Of a stretch of DNA of 64,000 bases, positions 12,595 through 53,639 are shown one piece after another. The stretch comes from Acidobacteriota bacterium (GTDB taxonomy: Bacteria; Acidobacteriota; Thermoanaerobaculia; Gp7-AA8). Every line of letters begins with the position of its first letter. Position 1 is the first letter of the stretch. The stretch covers positions 250,001 through 314,000 of the forward strand of contig JAJPHC010000013.1 in assembly GCA_021325515.1 (NCBI GenBank), read 5' to 3'. The notes below the pieces were generated by a model. That model ran no database searches and was not told where the DNA came from. It worked only from the letters and a program-made list of their open reading frames with translations. Both the position numbers and the translations under genes were made by a program.

Positions 12595-13650
12595 ATGAGC
12601 CGGGCGCGCATTGCGTTGTTTGTCTTTGTGGCCGGCACGGTCACGGGGATCTATTTCGCGCTGCAGGCGCACTGGAATCCGGCGTTCTCGCCGCGCATCA
12701 CCTGGTCGCGCGCATTCGGCGTCAATCTCACCTACTACTATCTCTGGGCGCTGACGACGCCGGTGGTCGTCACGATTGCGCGCCGTCTCCGCTTCGACAG
12801 TGCGCGCTGGGGCCGTGCGCTCGCCGCGCATGTGGTGGCGAGTGCGGTGCTCACCGTCGCACAGATCATTGCCGGTGAAGCGATTCTCGCCCTCCTCGGC
12901 CTTCGACCCGCCGCGCCGTTCGGGGAGAACGTGCGGGCGTCGTTCAATGCGAATTTTCAATCGAGCCTGCCGACGTACTGGATGATTCTCTTCGCCTGGC
13001 TGGCGTTCGACTTCTACGTGAAGAGCCGCGATCGCGAGCTGCGCAGCGCTCAACTGGCGGGCGAGCTGTCGCGCGCGCAACTGCAGGCGCTGCGGATGCA
13101 GCTCAAGCCGCACTTCCTCTTCAATACGCTCAATTCGATCTCCTCGCTGATGTACAGCGATGTCGAGGCGGCGGACGCGATGCTGGCGCGCCTCAGCGAG
13201 TTTCTCCGCCTCACGCTCGATCGCGAGCTCGAACAGGAAGTGACGCTGACCGAGGAGCTGGAGTATGTGCGGCGCTACCTGGAGATCGAGAAGATCCGCT
13301 TCGAGGAGCGGCTCTCCGTCCGCGTCGATGTCGGCCTCGACGCGGGCGAGGCGCGCGTGCCGTCGCTGGCGCTGCAGCCGCTGGTTGAGAACGCGATCCA
13401 TCACGGGATCGCGGCCCGCCCCGGCGGCGGCACGATCGCGATTCACGCGCGCCGCGAGAACGGCACGCTGCGCATCTCCGTCACCGACGACGGCGTCGGC
13501 AGCGGCGACGAGCATCCGCCGGAGCGCATCGGCCTCGCGAACACGCGGGCGCGGCTGGAGAAGTTGTATGGCGCCGAACAGCAGTTCATCTTTCGCGCAT
13601 CGCCGGCGGGGGGATGCGTCGTCGAACTGTCGATTCCGTATCACACCTGA
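12595..13650 (+). CDS. LytS-type membrane sensor histidine kinase
   Basis: This 351-aa kinase has four predicted helices in residues 5-145. A short linker rich in charged residues (KSRDRELRSAQLAGELSRAQ) likely forms a coiled-coil signalling helix. The phospho-acceptor motif is LKPHFLFNTLNSISSL (about 175), the N-box is PLVENAIHHGIA and the G-box is RIGLANTRARLEKLYG. It lies 2 bp upstream of its LytTR partner. It is similar in design to the kinases at 821 and 15926, which suggests expansion of one family. Confidence 0.92.
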   Translation: MSRARIALFVFVAGTVTGIYFALQAHWNPAFSPRITWSRAFGVNLTYYYLWALTTPVVVTIARRLRFDSARWGRALAAHVVASAVLTVAQIIAGEAILALLGLRPAAPFGENVRASFNANFQSSLPTYWMILFAWLAFDFYVKSRDRELRSAQLAGELSRAQLQALRMQLKPHFLFNTLNSISSLMYSDVEAADAMLARLSEFLRLTLDRELEQEVTLTEELEYVRRYLEIEKIRFEERLSVRVDVGLDAGEARVPSLALQPLVENAIHHGIAARPGGGTIAIHARRENGTLRISVTDDGVGSGDEHPPERIGLANTRARLEKLYGAEQQFIFRASPAGGCVVELSIPYHT

Positions 13651-13652
13651 CC

Positions 13653-14417
13653 ATGAAGACGATCCGCACGATGATCATCGACGACGAGCGGCTGGCGCGG
13701 CAGAAGCTGCGCACGCTGCTCGAGGATGATGAGGAGATCGAGATCACCGGCGAGTGCGCGGATGGCCTCGAGGCGATCGGCGCGATTCGCAGGCAGAAGC
13801 CCGATCTGCTGCTGCTCGACATCGAGATGCCGGGCGCCAACGGTTTCGAAGTGCTGCAGAAGCTGCGCGGCGAGCGCCTGCCCGTCGTCATCTTCATCAC
13901 CGCGCATGATGAATATGCGGTGAAGGCGTTCGAGGTCGAGGCGGCGGACTACGTGATGAAGCCGTTCGACCGGAAGAGGTTTCAGGAGGCGCTGCGCCGC
14001 GCGAAGCGGCACTTCGCCGAGGATGGCGCGGAGTCGGAGGAGCGGCTGCTGCGCCTGCTCGAGCGTGTCGTGAAGCCGAAGTCGCTCGATCACTTCGTCG
14101 TGAAGGCGCGCGACCGGACGTTCCTCGTCAGCACCGCGGACGTCGATTGGATCGAGGCCGAAGGGAAATACGTGCGGCTGCACGCGGCGGGAGCCGCGCA
14201 TCTCGTGCGCGAGTCGATCAGCGAAGTCGAGGAGCGGCTCGACGCGCGGAAGTTCCTGCGCATCCACCGCGCCACGATCGTGAATGTGAAGAGGATTCAG
14301 GAAATGCACCGCGGCTTCGGCGGCGCGATGTTCGTCGTGCTGAAGGATGGGACGAGGCTGACGATGAGCCGGCGCTACCGCGGCCGGATTCGCGAGCTCA
14401 CGGGGATGGATGTCTGA
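13653..14417 (+). CDS. LytTR-family response regulator
   Basis: This 254-aa regulator has a receiver domain (1-118: IIDDERLARQKL, phospho-acceptor Asp in LLLDIEMPG, Lys in VMKPFDRKRF) and a LytTR domain (about 150-250: VDWIEAEGKYVRLH, IHRATIVNVKRI). ATG at 13653 follows the kinase stop by 2 bp. A longer reading from inside the kinase gene (13614) is unlikely, because it would add residues before the receiver's first strand. The target promoters are unknown. Confidence 0.93.
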   Translation: MKTIRTMIIDDERLARQKLRTLLEDDEEIEITGECADGLEAIGAIRRQKPDLLLLDIEMPGANGFEVLQKLRGERLPVVIFITAHDEYAVKAFEVEAADYVMKPFDRKRFQEALRRAKRHFAEDGAESEERLLRLLERVVKPKSLDHFVVKARDRTFLVSTADVDWIEAEGKYVRLHAAGAAHLVRESISEVEERLDARKFLRIHRATIVNVKRIQEMHRGFGGAMFVVLKDGTRLTMSRRYRGRIRELTGMDV

Positions 14418-14443
14418 TTCGTTCGAATTGTAGATGTGGGTGC

Positions 14444-14527
14444 GCGGGTACGCGGGCTCGCGGGCTCGCGGTAGGATTCGAATTCGAAATCGCCCCCCAC
14501 CGCGTACCCGCGAGCCCCGTTAGCCCC
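14444..14527. repeat. Intergenic 8-mer array with inverted arms (GCGGGCTC type)
   Basis: The left arm (14444-14473) has units GCGGGTAC, GCGGGCTC, GCGGGCTC. The right arm (14499-14527) has their inverse complements (CGCGTACCC, GCGAGCCCC). The centre contains a perfect 12-bp palindrome TTCGAATTCGAA (14477-14488). The right arm runs into the last codons of the HTH-PilZ gene. The array separates two convergent regulator genes. Confidence 0.8.
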
Positions 14528-15164
14528 GAACCCCGAGCGGCTGCTGGAGCGCGTTTCTTTCCAGCGTTTTCTGCATGCGCGATTCGCGCTTCCGTTTCAG
14601 GGACTCGCGGTCGGGCTCGATCGCGCCGACGCTCTGCAGGGAGCGGATGGCGTCGGCCATGATCTCGGACTCATCCGCGATGACCACACCGCTGATGTAG
14701 CCGTTGCTGGCGAGGTGGCTCCAGGCGATCCGGCCGCGCACGGTCCAGACGCGCTGCAGTCCGAAGATCTCGAACGACAGCTTTCCTTCGCTGCCGATGT
14801 GCAACGCGCGGGCGTGATGGATGCGCATGCCGCCCTCGCTGATGTCGAGGATGCGGGCTCTGGTGCTGACCATGCGCGCGTTGATCTCGACCCTCGTAAG
14901 GAATCGGCGGCCGGAGCGTAGCTCGCCGTCGATTTCGTTGATGACGGGAATGCTGGTGGCGACATCCGTGGCAGCGGGCCGGGTTCTGGAGCGCAGCGCG
15001 TCGATGCAGCGCTCGAGATACGCTTCGACGGCTTCGCGCCGGACGTAGATGCGGCGTCCCTTTCGCTCGGCGGGCAGCTCGCCCGTGCGCGTCAGCGCCT
15101 GAATGGCGGAGCGGGAGAGAGGAAGAATGCGGGAGAGCTCGGCCAGCGTCAGGGTTTCGGACAT
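14520..15164 (-). CDS. Excisionase-type HTH fused to PilZ domain
   Basis: This 214-aa protein has an N-terminal winged-helix of the excisionase/MerR-like HTH_17 type (about 5-55: LTLAELSRILPLSRSAIQAL, ELPAERKGRRIYVRREAVEAYL). A PilZ domain follows (about 83-185) with both cyclic-di-GMP signature elements, RFLTR (RxxxR) and DISEGG (DxSxxG). A basic C-terminal tail (about 190-214) follows. It reads as a one-protein cyclic-di-GMP-responsive DNA-binding regulator; that role is inferred from domains. It lies 36 bp downstream of the LytTR gene on the same strand. The last codons lie in a repeat array. Confidence 0.85.
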   Translation of the reverse strand: MSETLTLAELSRILPLSRSAIQALTRTGELPAERKGRRIYVRREAVEAYLERCIDALRSRTRPAATDVATSIPVINEIDGELRSGRRFLTRVEINARMVSTRARILDISEGGMRIHHARALHIGSEGKLSFEIFGLQRVWTVRGRIAWSHLASNGYISGVVIADESEIMADAIRSLQSVGAIEPDRESLKRKRESRMQKTLERNALQQPLGVRG

Positions 15165-15200
15165 ACCGCACCCCTGGCATCCAAGAAGTGTGCCGCTCGG

Positions 15201-15929
15201 CTACAGCAGTTCTTTCAATCGCGCGTATCCGCTTCGGCTCACAGGCACTTTCGTCCCGTCGCGCAGGATGGCGACGCGGCTGTCTTTGGCATAGAGCTCG
15301 AGCTTTTCGATGCGCTCGATGTTGAGCAGCACGGAGCGGTGCACGCGGACGAAGCGGCCCGGATCGAGCGCCTGCGCGAGATCGCCGATCGATTGCTGTT
15401 TGCGCAGCGTCGTGCCCGCGGTGTGAATCACGATCGCCTCGTCGTCGGCTTCGACGTAGTCGATCCGCGCGACCGGGACGATCTGAATCGTGCCGTCGTC
15501 CTGGCGCACAACCAGCCGTTGCAGCGGTTTCGCGCGGAGTGCCGACGCGAGCCGCCCGGCCTCCGGCCGCGGATTGCCGCTCTGCTGTTTGATCCGCTGC
15601 AGCGCGCTCTGCAGCCGCGCCTCCGAGACAGGCTTCAGCAGATAGTCGAGCGCGTGGACCTCGAAGGCGCGCAGTGCGTACTCATCGTGCGCGGTCACGA
15701 AGACGACATTCGGCGAGCGGTCGAGCAGCTCGAGCACTTCGAAGCCGTCGAGCTTCGGCATCTGGATGTCGAGGAGCAGCAGGTCGGGATCATGTTCCGC
15801 GACGGCCTTCACCGCCTCGAAACCGTTGGCACATTCGGCGACGATCTCCACATCCTCATCCGCCGCGAGGTATTCGCGGAGGACGTCGCGGGCCAGCGGC
15901 TCGTCGTCGACGATGATCGTGCGGATCAT
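15201..15929 (-). CDS. LytTR-family response regulator
   Basis: This 242-aa regulator has a receiver domain (1-115: VDDEPLARDVL, Asp in LLLDIQMPKLDG, Lys in LLKPVSEARL) and a LytTR domain (about 138-242: IDYVEADDEAIVIH, VHRSVLLNIERI). Its ATG overlaps the kinase stop by 2 bp (ATGA), and it is the last gene of the five-gene LiaF-like/LytS operon before the HTH-PilZ gene. It probably regulates this operon or other envelope functions, by analogy with LiaFSR; this is inference. Confidence 0.92.
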   Translation of the reverse strand: MIRTIIVDDEPLARDVLREYLAADEDVEIVAECANGFEAVKAVAEHDPDLLLLDIQMPKLDGFEVLELLDRSPNVVFVTAHDEYALRAFEVHALDYLLKPVSEARLQSALQRIKQQSGNPRPEAGRLASALRAKPLQRLVVRQDDGTIQIVPVARIDYVEADDEAIVIHTAGTTLRKQQSIGDLAQALDPGRFVRVHRSVLLNIERIEKLELYAKDSRVAILRDGTKVPVSRSGYARLKELL

Positions 15930-16942
15930 CGCGGCAGCTCGATGCTGACGTGAAAGCGCCCGTCGTTCTCGCCGGCCTGAAAGACGGCTTTTCCATCGGA
16001 GACCGTCTGCAGGCGTCCGCGCGCGTTCTTCATTCCGATGCCTTCTCCACTCTGATCGACGCGATCGGGATCGGCGGGATTGTCGATCACGATGCGCAGC
16101 ATGCCATCGCGAAGTGTCGCATCGATGTCGATGGTGCCGCCTTCCAGGACCGAGGCCACGCCGTGCCGCACGGCGTTCTCAACCAGCGGCTGCAGCAGCA
16201 GCGGCGGCACGAGACATTGTGCCGAGGCGTCATCGACGCGGATGTTCGTCTTCAAGCGCTCACCGAACCGCACTCTCTCGATGTCGAGGTAGCGCGTCAC
16301 GAGATCCATCTCCTCCGCCAGTGTGATTCGTTCCTGAGCGCCGAGCCGGAGGATGAGGCGAAAAAAATCGGCGAGCCTCTGCGCCATCTGCCGCGCGTCG
16401 TCGGGCCGTGAGCCGCACAGCGAGGCGACCGCGTTGAGGCTGTTGAAGAGGAAGTGCGGATCGACCTGCGCCTTGAACGCGCGCAACTCGGCCTCGCGCG
16501 CCAGCACGCGATAGCGCAGCGCCGCTTCCTCCGCTTCACGCGAGACCTCGATTTCCAGCACCAGGTACTGCACGGCGACCGTGGTGAGATAGAGCAGGAG
16601 TCCCAGCGCGAAGATCAGTTGATAGTTGATCTCGATCGGCGCGAAGCGCGTGCCGAGCGCGGCGATCCAGGACTTCCAGATCAGCACCCACAGCCCGCTC
16701 GCCGCGGCGGCGGAGCCGATCACCGCTGCTGCAATCGAGCTGCGATTCGCCGATTGCAGCGGCATCGCGCGGCAGAGGTAGCGCGAGGCGAGCCCGATGA
16801 AACCGAGGAGGAGCGAGGGAGGGAGAGCGGCCGCGGTGGCGAGGCCGATCGGAGTCTTCGCCGACAGAAGAAACACAGAGGAGGCGAGCGCCGCGATCGT
16901 GACCGCGGCGAACGCGTAGAGAGCCAGCTCGAGCCGTTTCAC
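15926..16942 (-). CDS. LytS-type membrane sensor histidine kinase
   Basis: This 338-aa kinase has four hydrophobic segments (about 5-25, 35-55, 70-95, 110-130). The phospho-acceptor motif is VDPHFLFNSLNAVASL, the N-box is PLVENAVRHGVA and the G-box is GIGMKNARGRL. The GTG start at 16940-16942 overlaps the LiaF-like stop (GTGA), so translation is coupled through the operon. It would phosphorylate the LytTR regulator that follows. In known Lia systems the LiaF protein inhibits the kinase. Here the kinase is of the LytS rather than the LiaS type. Confidence 0.9.
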   Translation of the reverse strand: MKRLELALYAFAAVTIAALASSVFLLSAKTPIGLATAAALPPSLLLGFIGLASRYLCRAMPLQSANRSSIAAAVIGSAAAASGLWVLIWKSWIAALGTRFAPIEINYQLIFALGLLLYLTTVAVQYLVLEIEVSREAEEAALRYRVLAREAELRAFKAQVDPHFLFNSLNAVASLCGSRPDDARQMAQRLADFFRLILRLGAQERITLAEEMDLVTRYLDIERVRFGERLKTNIRVDDASAQCLVPPLLLQPLVENAVRHGVASVLEGGTIDIDATLRDGMLRIVIDNPADPDRVDQSGEGIGMKNARGRLQTVSDGKAVFQAGENDGRFHVSIELPR

Positions 16943-17649
16943 GCCGTCACTTCCTTCGCGTTGCGGATCTCCACGCCGCCCATGATCGCGCTTCCGCGGA
17001 CGATCAGGCGCGGCCCGTCGCCTTCCGTCGGATTGCTCGTGCGATTCGATGAGCCGCCGAGAAGTCCGATCACGCGATTCTCGATCACCCAATCCTTCGG
17101 CACGCGCAACTCGATGCCGCCCCAGAACGCGACCACATCGACCTCGGCCATCGTCACGATCTTCGCGCTCGTGAGATTGATGTCGCAGCCGCCCATCACC
17201 GCGACGGCGTCGCCGCCGGCGAGATCCGCCGACGTCACCTGCGAGCCGTTGCCTCCCATCCATGCGAAGGTGTGGAAGCGCTCGCCGCTGCCGGAACCGC
17301 GCAGCGCCTGGCCGATCAGCGTCAGTCCGCCCGCGGTGATCAGCAGCGGCCAGAGGCCGAGGATCTTCCAGAAGCGGAAGTCGGGGACGAGAGGAATGCT
17401 CGGCATGAACATCAGCGCGACGCACATCCAGATGATGCCGCCGATCCACTGCCGGCGCGCGAGGTGCGCGAGCGAGGTGGCGACGAGGATCAGCGGCCAC
17501 CAGCGGAAGTAGTCGTGCGCATCGATGCGGCCGAGCTGATCGAGCCAGGCGATGAGGCCGAAGGCGAGGATCGAGAGGCCGGTGACGAGCGCCATCCACG
17601 GATTCTTGCGGCGGCGTGCCTCGCGGCGGATCGCGCGGTCATCCATCAT
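16939..17649 (-). CDS. LiaF-like membrane protein
   Basis: This 236-aa protein has four helices in residues 20-115 with the LiaF transmembrane-like repeat RWWPLILVATSLAHL and LWPLLITAGGLTLIG. A C-terminal LiaF-type beta domain follows (about 125-232: WMGGNGSQV, AVMGGCDINL, FWGGIELRVP, IMGGVEIRN). Such domains stack GG-containing beta turns and face the cytoplasm. ATG ATG at 17644-17649 is preceded by GGAGG. It overlaps the gene upstream by 11 bp and the kinase downstream by 4 bp. It probably modulates the LytS kinase. Confidence 0.88.
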   Translation of the reverse strand: MMDDRAIRREARRRKNPWMALVTGLSILAFGLIAWLDQLGRIDAHDYFRWWPLILVATSLAHLARRQWIGGIIWMCVALMFMPSIPLVPDFRFWKILGLWPLLITAGGLTLIGQALRGSGSGERFHTFAWMGGNGSQVTSADLAGGDAVAVMGGCDINLTSAKIVTMAEVDVVAFWGGIELRVPKDWVIENRVIGLLGGSSNRTSNPTEGDGPRLIVRGSAIMGGVEIRNAKEVTA

Positions 17650-18039: not shown

Positions 18040-18738
18040 TCAATGTGCGGGCGAGGCGTCCGCACGCCATTCGCTTCTCGCGTTCTTGATTTCGATTCCG
18101 GACATGAGCACGGCGCCGCGCACGATGAGCCTGCGGCCGCCCGCGGTGGATGAGGCCTTGTTCTCGACGCCGCCCATGACCGGGAAGGCTTCGCAGAGGA
18201 CGTCCCAGCCGGGAGGGACACGCAGCGTGGTGCCGCCCCACATCGAGAGGACTTCGACGGCGACGGGCGTGCGGTCCTCTCCCGGCTCGCCGAGCTCGAG
18301 GTCCGCGCCGCCCATGAAGGAGACGATGCGATGGCCGTTGAGCTCATCGGGCGACACTTTCGATTTGCGTGTGGTCAACACGTTGACCATCGTGCCGCCG
18401 CCGGTGCCGGAGGGCCGGACGCCGAGTGCGCTCAGGACGATCATCGCGCCGGCGCCGATGAGGATCAGAGGCCAGAGCGAGAAGATCGTCCGGTGGGCAA
18501 CGTGCGGCAGGAGCAGCAGCGCGCCGAACGCGATGCAGACGATGCCGAGGCCGCGCCGCGTCGCGTCGGCGAGGTAGATCGCGCCGAGGAGGACGAGGAA
18601 CAGCGGCCAGTAGCGGAGGATGCGATCGGCGTCGAAGAGATCGAGGTTATCGAGAGTCAGAACGACGCCGAGCATCGTGAAGAAAAGTCCGGCGATCAGC
18701 TTTGCCGGGCCGGGGCGGGGTGTGACGATCGTTTCCAT
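18040..18738 (-). CDS. LiaF-like membrane protein
   Basis: This 232-aa first gene of the operon has four helices (about 14-32, 40-60, 62-80, 85-105) with RYWPLFLVLLGAIYL and LWPLILIGAGAMIVL. A LiaF-type beta domain follows (about 115-220: SFMGGADLELG, SMWGGTTLRVPPGWDV, PVMGGVENK). The design is the same as the gene at 16939, so the two are likely paralogues. A TAATCT box lies 6 nt before the ATG with no Shine-Dalgarno, so the operon transcript may be leaderless. Confidence 0.88.
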   Translation of the reverse strand: METIVTPRPGPAKLIAGLFFTMLGVVLTLDNLDLFDADRILRYWPLFLVLLGAIYLADATRRGLGIVCIAFGALLLLPHVAHRTIFSLWPLILIGAGAMIVLSALGVRPSGTGGGTMVNVLTTRKSKVSPDELNGHRIVSFMGGADLELGEPGEDRTPVAVEVLSMWGGTTLRVPPGWDVLCEAFPVMGGVENKASSTAGGRRLIVRGAVLMSGIEIKNARSEWRADASPAH

Positions 18739-26978: not shown

Positions 26979-27311
26979 ATGAGCGATGACCGTCGTAGAG
27001 CCGAACGATTCCCGATGCGCGTCCCTGTCTCGTTCGGCGGCGGCACCGGGACCACCCATGATGTCAGCGGTCTGGGCGTCTTCTTCGAGACCGACTATCC
27101 CTTCGAAGTCGGCAGCACGATCGACTTCACGCTCGTCGTCCCCGACACCTCCAACGTCCAGTGCCACGGCACGATCGTCCGGATGACCCAGATCCGCGAG
27201 CACTTCGGCGTCGCCGTCGAGATCGATTCCTACAAGCTCACCGAAGATCAGCCGGTGATCGGCGTCCGCCCGCACATGATCATCGAGCAGTTCCAGAAGT
27301 TCGTGGGGTGA
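26979..27311 (+). CDS. Single-domain PilZ protein
   Basis: This 110-aa protein is a stand-alone PilZ domain with both cyclic-di-GMP binding elements: RRAERF (RxxxR, about 6-10) and DVSGLG (DxSxxG, about 28-33). It should bind cyclic di-GMP and relay it to a partner protein. A strong GGAGG lies 8 nt upstream of ATG 26979. The repeat array at 27312 starts directly after its stop. The 173-bp gap upstream (26806-26978) holds only promoter-like TATCAT and the ribosome site. Confidence 0.92.
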   Translation: MSDDRRRAERFPMRVPVSFGGGTGTTHDVSGLGVFFETDYPFEVGSTIDFTLVVPDTSNVQCHGTIVRMTQIREHFGVAVEIDSYKLTEDQPVIGVRPHMIIEQFQKFVG

Positions 27312-52950: not shown

Positions 52951-52984
52951 AGACCCTCGCCGATTGTAACGCCGGGGAGGGTCT
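52951..52984. terminator. Hairpin between micro-ORF and PilZ gene
   Basis: AGACCCTCGCCG (52951-52962) and CGGGGAGGGTCT (52973-52984) form an 11/12 bp stem with a loop of about 10 nt. It lies between the micro-ORF and the convergent PilZ gene, so it could serve both strands. No T-tract is visible. Confidence 0.5.
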
Positions 52985-53639
52985 ATCCGAGCTTCGCTGC
53001 GATCGCGCACTGCAGGCGGTAACGCGTTTCATCGTCGGCGTTCTCGAACGCGCGCTGCAGCGCGGCGGAATCGGCGGCGTCGCGCGCAACGGTGAAACCG
53101 TCGTGAGGCTGAGCGGGGGAGGTGACAAATTCTTTCGTCCATCCTGACGGCGTGAGATGAAAACGGATGTATGGCGAGCCATTATCGTCGTTTGTCGCGC
53201 GTGTCTTGATGCGGCGGACCCACGTGTCCTCCCCTTCGTCCGCGGCCAGCGGCGTCCGGATCCGGCGCGTCCAGGTGTCGTCGCCCGAAAACTGCGGCTC
53301 GGCGGCCGGCTGCACATGAGGCTCTGCGCTGTGGACGATCGCCTCGATGAGGCTTTCGCTCGCTGGATCAGATGGTCCGAACTGGATGCCGGTGTGATAG
53401 ACGACGCGCCCTTCACGCCGACCCATGATCGCAGTCCGGACGACTTTCGCCGGAAGCTCGGCCTCGCGTCCCTGCCACTGAAGGTGAATCCGCGCGCCGA
53501 GAATCGTGAATCGATCCTGATGCTCGAGGAGCGCGCCGATCGTACTGACGTTGATCAGCGTCACGCGCACTCCTCCGATGCTCGCCTCGACACCGGCAGG
53601 CAGCGACATTCGTGGTGCAGCGCGGCGCTCGTCAGTCAT
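52983..53639 (-). CDS. PilZ domain protein with C-terminal extension
   Basis: This 218-aa protein has an N-terminal PilZ domain (about 3-105) with RRAAPR (RxxxR) and NVSTIG (NxSxxG) cyclic-di-GMP elements. About 110 residues follow with no recognised fold, including the pair DTWTRRIRT and DTWVRRIKT and a C-terminal Ala-rich stretch. The extension may bind the regulated partner. It lies directly downstream of a palindromic repeat element. Confidence 0.88.
   Translation of the reverse strand: MTDERRAAPRMSLPAGVEASIGGVRVTLINVSTIGALLEHQDRFTILGARIHLQWQGREAELPAKVVRTAIMGRREGRVVYHTGIQFGPSDPASESLIEAIVHSAEPHVQPAAEPQFSGDDTWTRRIRTPLAADEGEDTWVRRIKTRATNDDNGSPYIRFHLTPSGWTKEFVTSPAQPHDGFTVARDAADSAALQRAFENADDETRYRLQCAIAAKLG

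Follow-up and report, generated by a model that had tools for sequence, protein, structure and literature searches.

The fusion gene and its surroundings

The window, a 64,000-nucleotide stretch of an Acidobacteriota contig, carries a minus-strand gene whose product joins an N-terminal winged helix-turn-helix (HTH) of the HTH_17, or excisionase, type to a PilZ domain (Table 1). This combination was the core of the original prediction, made from the letters alone, and both Pfam domains were recovered above their curated cut-offs: HTH_17 (PF12728) with 51.3 bits against 27 (E 1.4e-13), and PilZ (PF07238) with 33.6 bits against 22.5 (E 5.1e-8). In alignment with its paralogues the protein ends after a basic helix and is without their further C-terminal domain. 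GC content of the gene by codon position is 0.64/0.50/0.86.

Table 1. Features of the HTH_17-PilZ fusion gene, with positions in the window
Feature	Position	Strand	Basis and remarks
HTH_17-PilZ fusion gene	14520-15164	minus	Open reading frame, 214 aa, ATG start
HTH_17 / excisionase-type winged helix-turn-helix	15006-15152	minus	Residues 5-53; PF12728, TIGR01764, predicted fold
Linker	14919-15005	minus	Residues 54-82; pLDDT <50 at residues 61-81
RxxxR of putative c-di-GMP site, R83-SGR-R87	14904-14918	minus	Alignment of 41 PilZ domains
PilZ domain by Pfam	14655-14903	minus	Residues 88-170; PF07238, fold matches
DxSxxG of putative c-di-GMP site, D107-ISEG-G112	14829-14846	minus	Motif and alignment
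C-terminal basic helix	14544-14609	minus	Residues 186-207; matches 'SLxRKR' segment of paralogue family
Possible ribosome-binding site, AGGGG	15171-15175	minus	6 nt upstream of ATG; direct sequence reading

Two LytS-type kinase/LytTR pairs, at 12595-14417 on the plus strand and 15201-16930 on the minus strand, converge on the fusion gene. The LytTR response regulator of the second pair (15201-15929) lies on the same strand, 36 nt upstream of the fusion gene, and is itself preceded by its LytS-type kinase and by LiaF-like membrane genes (16939-17649 and 18040-18738). Matches to this regulator were found at 74-77% identity in six genomes and at 56-60% in two more. The fusion gene is absent beside the regulator orthologue at all eight of these loci (tblastn E ≤ 0.01, 1.5 kb beyond the regulator), which were counted only with a full-length match, so that L093 (ending at a contig edge) and L094 (broken) were left out. 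Because the co-location is not conserved, we claim neither a functional link to LytS/LytTR nor a role in the neighbouring operon, despite the 36-nt gap. A GC-rich inverted repeat at 14438-14533, between two convergent genes, has 18-nt arms that are 89% complementary and a longer 48-nt pairing that is 73% complementary; no terminator-like site was reported at this repeat, which is possibly a shared transcription end.

A GGDEF protein and two other PilZ proteins had also been expected in the window, and they are there: an FHA-GGDEF protein at 1909-2817 and PilZ proteins at 26979-27311 and 52983-53639, with no further ones in the window. The FHA-GGDEF gene adjoins a LytS-type kinase gene (821-1843), and its product could link phosphothreonine recognition to cyclic di-GMP (c-di-GMP) synthesis. 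PilZ is the best-known c-di-GMP receptor, and EAL domains act as c-di-GMP phosphodiesterases. Genome-wide there are 43 GGDEF, 17 EAL and 15 PilZ matches, and the numbers of GGDEF and EAL domains make it very probable that c-di-GMP is present in this organism. A related ligand could be imagined for the PilZ domain, such as 3',3'-cGAMP from a promiscuous GGDEF enzyme, given that hybrid GGDEF enzymes exist in other phyla and that the PilZ motif by itself does not exclude related dinucleotides, but the 17 EAL-domain matches speak for c-di-GMP and make such a ligand very improbable.

The HTH_17 domain and the PilZ motif

An AlphaFold2 model of the fusion protein, built on a four-row alignment, has a mean pLDDT of 74.6 and contains, in order, a winged HTH, the linker, a PilZ barrel and a C-terminal helix; with low-confidence residues in the linker and a pTM of 0.49, the placement of the domains relative to each other is unreliable. 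The N-terminus also matches the NCBIfam 'excise' family of excisionase-type DNA-binding domains (TIGR01764; 9.5e-9, 35.5 bits against a cut-off of 28.8), and the fusion protein has excisionase matches in PHROG. This part of the protein is basic, with a net charge of +3 over residues 3-52 and +4 in the wing. Its predicted fold was matched by VIA-align 2 to DNA-bound BldC (6amk_B; Z 7.8, rmsd 1.2, 50 of 51 chain residues), to Pukovnik Xis (4j2n_C; Z 7.5) and to RdfS (8dgl; Z 6.2). A Z below 8 alone could reflect a common arrangement, and the BldC match agrees with the HTH_17 profile. By profile and model, the N-terminus is a BldC/Xis-type winged HTH and a putative DNA-binding domain, in keeping with the winged helix originally proposed.

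The top-scoring N-terminal fold match is 6hn7_B (Z 8.5, rmsd 2.4, 67 residues), a small protein described in work on phage-satellite packaging, and the CbpA-CbpM complex (3ucs; Z 6.4) is also among the matches. We drew no link to defence or packaging from 6hn7_B, nor from the PADLOC mad1 match (8.6e-7, residues 1-48) and the PHROG terminase-small-subunit match (6.1e-5, residues 1-70), both of which involve the HTH end only.

Phage and ICE excisionases such as Pukovnik Xis and RdfS have the same HTH_17-type winged helix, which together with the 'excise' and PHROG matches would suit a mobile-element origin, with the protein a genuine excisionase (recombination directionality factor) and the PilZ domain captured by the element. 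The protein differs from those excisionases in its fusion to PilZ and in having no tyrosine recombinase in the window: none of the 13 Phage_integrase (tyrosine-recombinase) matches of the genome falls there, the nearest on the same contig being about 174 kb and 194 kb away. HTH_17 is moreover a general DNA-binding family, and the HTH part had no match in 50,697 phage records. We give this explanation almost no credence, because no tyrosine recombinase is nearby.

The barrel is typical of PilZ. Foldseek gave 12 matches at E ≤ 0.001, each of them a PilZ domain or a PilZ-carrying cellulose synthase, several in c-di-GMP-bound form, including the complexes 4xrn and Alg44 (4rt0). VIA-align 2 matched the barrel to VCA0042 (Z 12.5 for 1yln and 12.4 for the c-di-GMP complex 3kyg) and to the c-di-GMP complexes of YcgR (5y6g; Z 12.3) and MrkH (5kgo; Z 11.5), and returned a further fold match to PlzA (7mie; Z 10.3). 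Sequence searches of the PDB with the full protein, the HTH part and the PilZ alignment returned unrelated chains only, nothing meaningful, and the score for the gmx PilZ paralogue domain of NCBIfam (TIGR02266) was 29.5 bits, below the curated cut-off of 68.7.

The c-di-GMP motif is defined as RxxxR plus (D/N)xSxxG in the part of PMC10333796 consulted, which also states that not every PilZ domain binds c-di-GMP and that the name-giving PilZ does not. String matching is weak evidence for the motif, because arginine is abundant in the fusion protein: RxxxR occurs five times, and of 20,000 shuffled versions of the sequence 310 contain both motifs at suitable spacing. We therefore aligned PilZ domains to fix its register. 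In the fetched loci, PilZ domains matching a profile of the query's subfamily gave 47 hits, from which 6 partial ones (profile end <100) were dropped to leave 41 domains. R83, R87 and G112 are identical in all 41, and R91 is Arg in only 6; the in-register RxxxR is therefore R83-R87, and R87-R91 was rejected as a coincidental second match. Position 107 is Asp in 26 domains and Asn in 10, and position 109 is Ser in 27, giving the full RxxxR and DxSxxG in 14 domains, the query included, or in 22 with Asn allowed. In the fusion protein all five positions (R83, R87, D107, S109 and G112) are intact. Both motifs are thus present as first proposed, with their register corrected.

The tolerance of this subfamily for loss of D and S, and the missing D in all four HTH-bearing relatives described below, would fit a protein that binds DNA and uses its PilZ domain not for c-di-GMP but for dimerisation or for docking a partner. 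We regard this as unlikely for the fusion protein itself, in which the five motif positions are complete and the barrel matches c-di-GMP-bound PilZ structures.

Relatives and distribution

All 18 genomes of the family (17 besides the query's) have a match to the query protein. Leaving the gene itself aside, there are 51 matches, of which 35 start at query residue 79 or later and 16 between residues 25 and 74; residues 1-24 are covered by none of them. This pattern indicates that the PilZ domain and the helix that follows it are the shared part. These belong to a lineage-specific paralogue family, as also indicated by the tree, with 28-34% identity to six members. Most paralogues consist of PilZ, the 'SLxRKR' helix and then a C-terminal helical domain (QHAR...EEVLAVWEYLER) that is absent from the query; one of the six other aligned paralogues, L012, also ends after the helix. 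The PilZ and 'SLxRKR' arrangement recurs at loci L008, L010-L024, L032-L036, L070 and similar ones, mostly with the segment 'QHAR..RL..YNRAK..HREEVLAVWEYLER'. Pfam reports PilZ only in L070, the one full-length paralogue scanned, and several members of the family have two PilZ domains.

An HTH-like N-terminus followed by a linker, PilZ and the C-terminal domain was found in four genes from 3 of the 17 other family genomes (G001, G010 and two in G015). Three of these relatives, those with named records, come from metagenome assemblies. Against HTH_17 two of the four relatives score 12.8 and 12.9 bits and two give no score, with a cut-off of 27. The query's HTH carries a net charge of +3; in the relatives the charge is -1 to -2, and their recognition helix is neutral or acidic. 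All four have Q in place of D107, giving QxSxxG. One relative was modelled and has the same order of winged-helix elements (pLDDT about 76-84). The search for relatives that the original prediction had suggested thus recovered the architecture, an HTH-like N-terminus on PilZ, with the basic HTH residues and the PilZ Asp lost. The HTH loss named there as counter-evidence is seen in these relatives, and no full orthologue was found. Conservation consequently gives no support for a shared DNA-binding, c-di-GMP-dependent function across the group.

A profile of the four relatives scores the query N-terminus at 17.8 bits, compared with 15.0 for the best of 2,000 shuffles, and in pairwise comparison with the query N-terminus two relatives beat all 1,000 shuffles, while 30 of 1,000 shuffles scored as well for L068 and 232 of 1,000 for L041. 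In a tree of the PilZ domains alone the four relatives form one clade (support 99/99), so that the loss of motif and HTH residues in them may be one event and not four. Of 200 bootstrap trees, 80% separate the query and the relatives together from the remaining domains, but the branch that does so has bootstrap/SH-aLRT support of only 78/3. A single origin of the HTH-PilZ fusion in the query and the four relatives is possible and favoured by these comparisons.

The gene order is the same at two loci, L079 (4077-5621) and L044 (3216-4703): a stand-alone receiver-domain gene comes immediately before the HTH-like/PilZ gene, which faces a long open reading frame (831/855 aa). An initial guess that this long gene encodes a cyclase was dropped, as it has no Pfam match at E ≤ 0.01. 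Beside the third relative, L081 (3513-4172) encodes repeated 'QEFATMRT' units, likely a coiled-coil.

The state of the HTH in these relatives bears on a further alternative, namely that PilZ binds c-di-GMP while the HTH mediates protein contacts, or no longer has its sites, making the protein an adaptor and not a transcription factor. The neutral or acidic recognition helices and sub-threshold HTH_17 scores of the four relatives, with the winged-helix order retained in the modelled one, would be expected of such an adaptor, as would the presence of CbpA-CbpM and the packaging protein 6hn7_B among the N-terminal fold matches. The query's own HTH, in contrast, is a canonical and basic HTH_17 and is closer to BldC than to the CbpM complex, and for the query we consider an adaptor role rather improbable.

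Beyond these genes, the 17 other family genomes, 148 genomes of the class and a 396-genome sample of the phylum Acidobacteriota yielded no orthologue in which both halves are intact, and selection on the domain combination cannot be shown for this reason. The class was searched with a profile (A3) of the query and three HTH-like relatives at E ≤ 1e-7. Among the best candidates of each genome (at most 22), the HTH part is in frame with PilZ in G000, G001, G010 and G015 only; a possible fifth fusion, G002:C206 (model positions 24-188), was rejected, since the frame before its likely ATG is not HTH-like. The phylum sample gave a match at E ≤ 1e-6 in 4 of 396 genomes, with the HTH covered by the query only among the best candidates per genome (at most 7). 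A search with the query HTH alone gave matches in three of the 147 other genomes of the class, located in short reading frames (98-109 aa). The query's own genome has 15 PilZ and 2 HTH_17 matches at E ≤ 0.001, which coincide only in the fusion gene. When a genome contig collection was scanned with the protein, 284 stretches matched the pattern and none encodes a relative, in a scan that finds close relatives only and from which the record of the window itself may be missing; scanning the same collection with A3 returned three loci, the HTH-like relatives already in that alignment. Among plasmids, the full fusion protein had no match and the HTH part had four weak HTH-only matches.

A possible c-di-GMP-responsive regulator

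The best reading of the fusion gene is a one-component, c-di-GMP-responsive DNA-binding regulator, which we would back and doubt in equal measure. Its basis is the domain content, the integrity of the motif, the predicted fold and the abundance of c-di-GMP enzymes in the genome, from which we infer c-di-GMP binding, DNA binding, the coupling of the two, its sign and any targets. The HTH_17 domain would bind DNA in the manner of BldC and Xis, and the PilZ domain would bind c-di-GMP via R83, R87 and D107-S109-G112. Because the flexible linker that follows the HTH runs up to the RxxxR, the ligand would be expected to order or fix the linker, and the resulting shift of the HTH relative to the PilZ barrel may strengthen or weaken DNA binding. 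On DNA, the HTH_17 protein BldC forms oligomers arranged head to tail, and RdfS, of the same type, also assembles in this way, according to the part of PMC11963761 consulted, so that the ligand could act on assembly. A fuller scenario, put forward tentatively and with more doubt than confidence, is a c-di-GMP-gated HTH_17 regulator with head-to-tail assembly on DNA as in BldC and RdfS, under the control of PilZ, that arose once in the family and was followed in a sister line by joint loss of the ligand motif and the DNA-binding residues.

On sequence grounds the fusion protein is a plausible switch. It is seen intact in this one genome only, which weakens the case; a few other genomes carry decayed relatives. 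A protein of 214 aa that combines a textbook winged HTH with a full PilZ motif would be a simple model for how c-di-GMP binding leads to DNA binding. Its relatives, in which the motif is altered and the helix acidic or neutral, offer natural comparison material.

Transcription factors that bind c-di-GMP are well known. MrkH of Klebsiella pneumoniae, a PilZ-type c-di-GMP-dependent transcription activator, resembles the fusion protein in its PilZ fold and in being a DNA-binding protein of similar size, but has no evident HTH, whereas the N-terminus described here is a standard HTH_17. The consulted part of the original paper describes no obvious homology of MrkH to an HTH domain (PMC3161979), and a 2025 review, in the portion consulted, calls its DNA-binding domain novel (PMC12564702). 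PlzA of Borrelia, which has two PilZ domains, likewise combines a c-di-GMP-type PilZ with nucleic-acid binding; the consulted text reports binding of DNA/RNA and assigns this activity to the N-terminal, non-canonical PilZ domain (PMC10333796) and not to an HTH. With MrkH and PlzA, action on DNA by PilZ proteins is already known, in both cases without an HTH as far as these sources describe them. The Acidobacteriota-family PilZ paralogues share PilZ and the following helix with the fusion protein, which differs from them in its N-terminal HTH_17 and in the absence of their C-terminal domain. BldC of Streptomyces, an HTH_17/MerR-like regulator, shares the fold of the N-terminal domain, but its listed solved chains are 51-56 residues long and we know of no sensor domain in it. 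Among the titles and abstract openings listed from the open-licence literature, none describes PilZ joined to an excisionase-type or standard HTH_17, and domain databases may well hold other HTH_17-PilZ examples. If the proposed function is correct, the fusion protein would be the first PilZ transcription factor known to us with a standard winged HTH.
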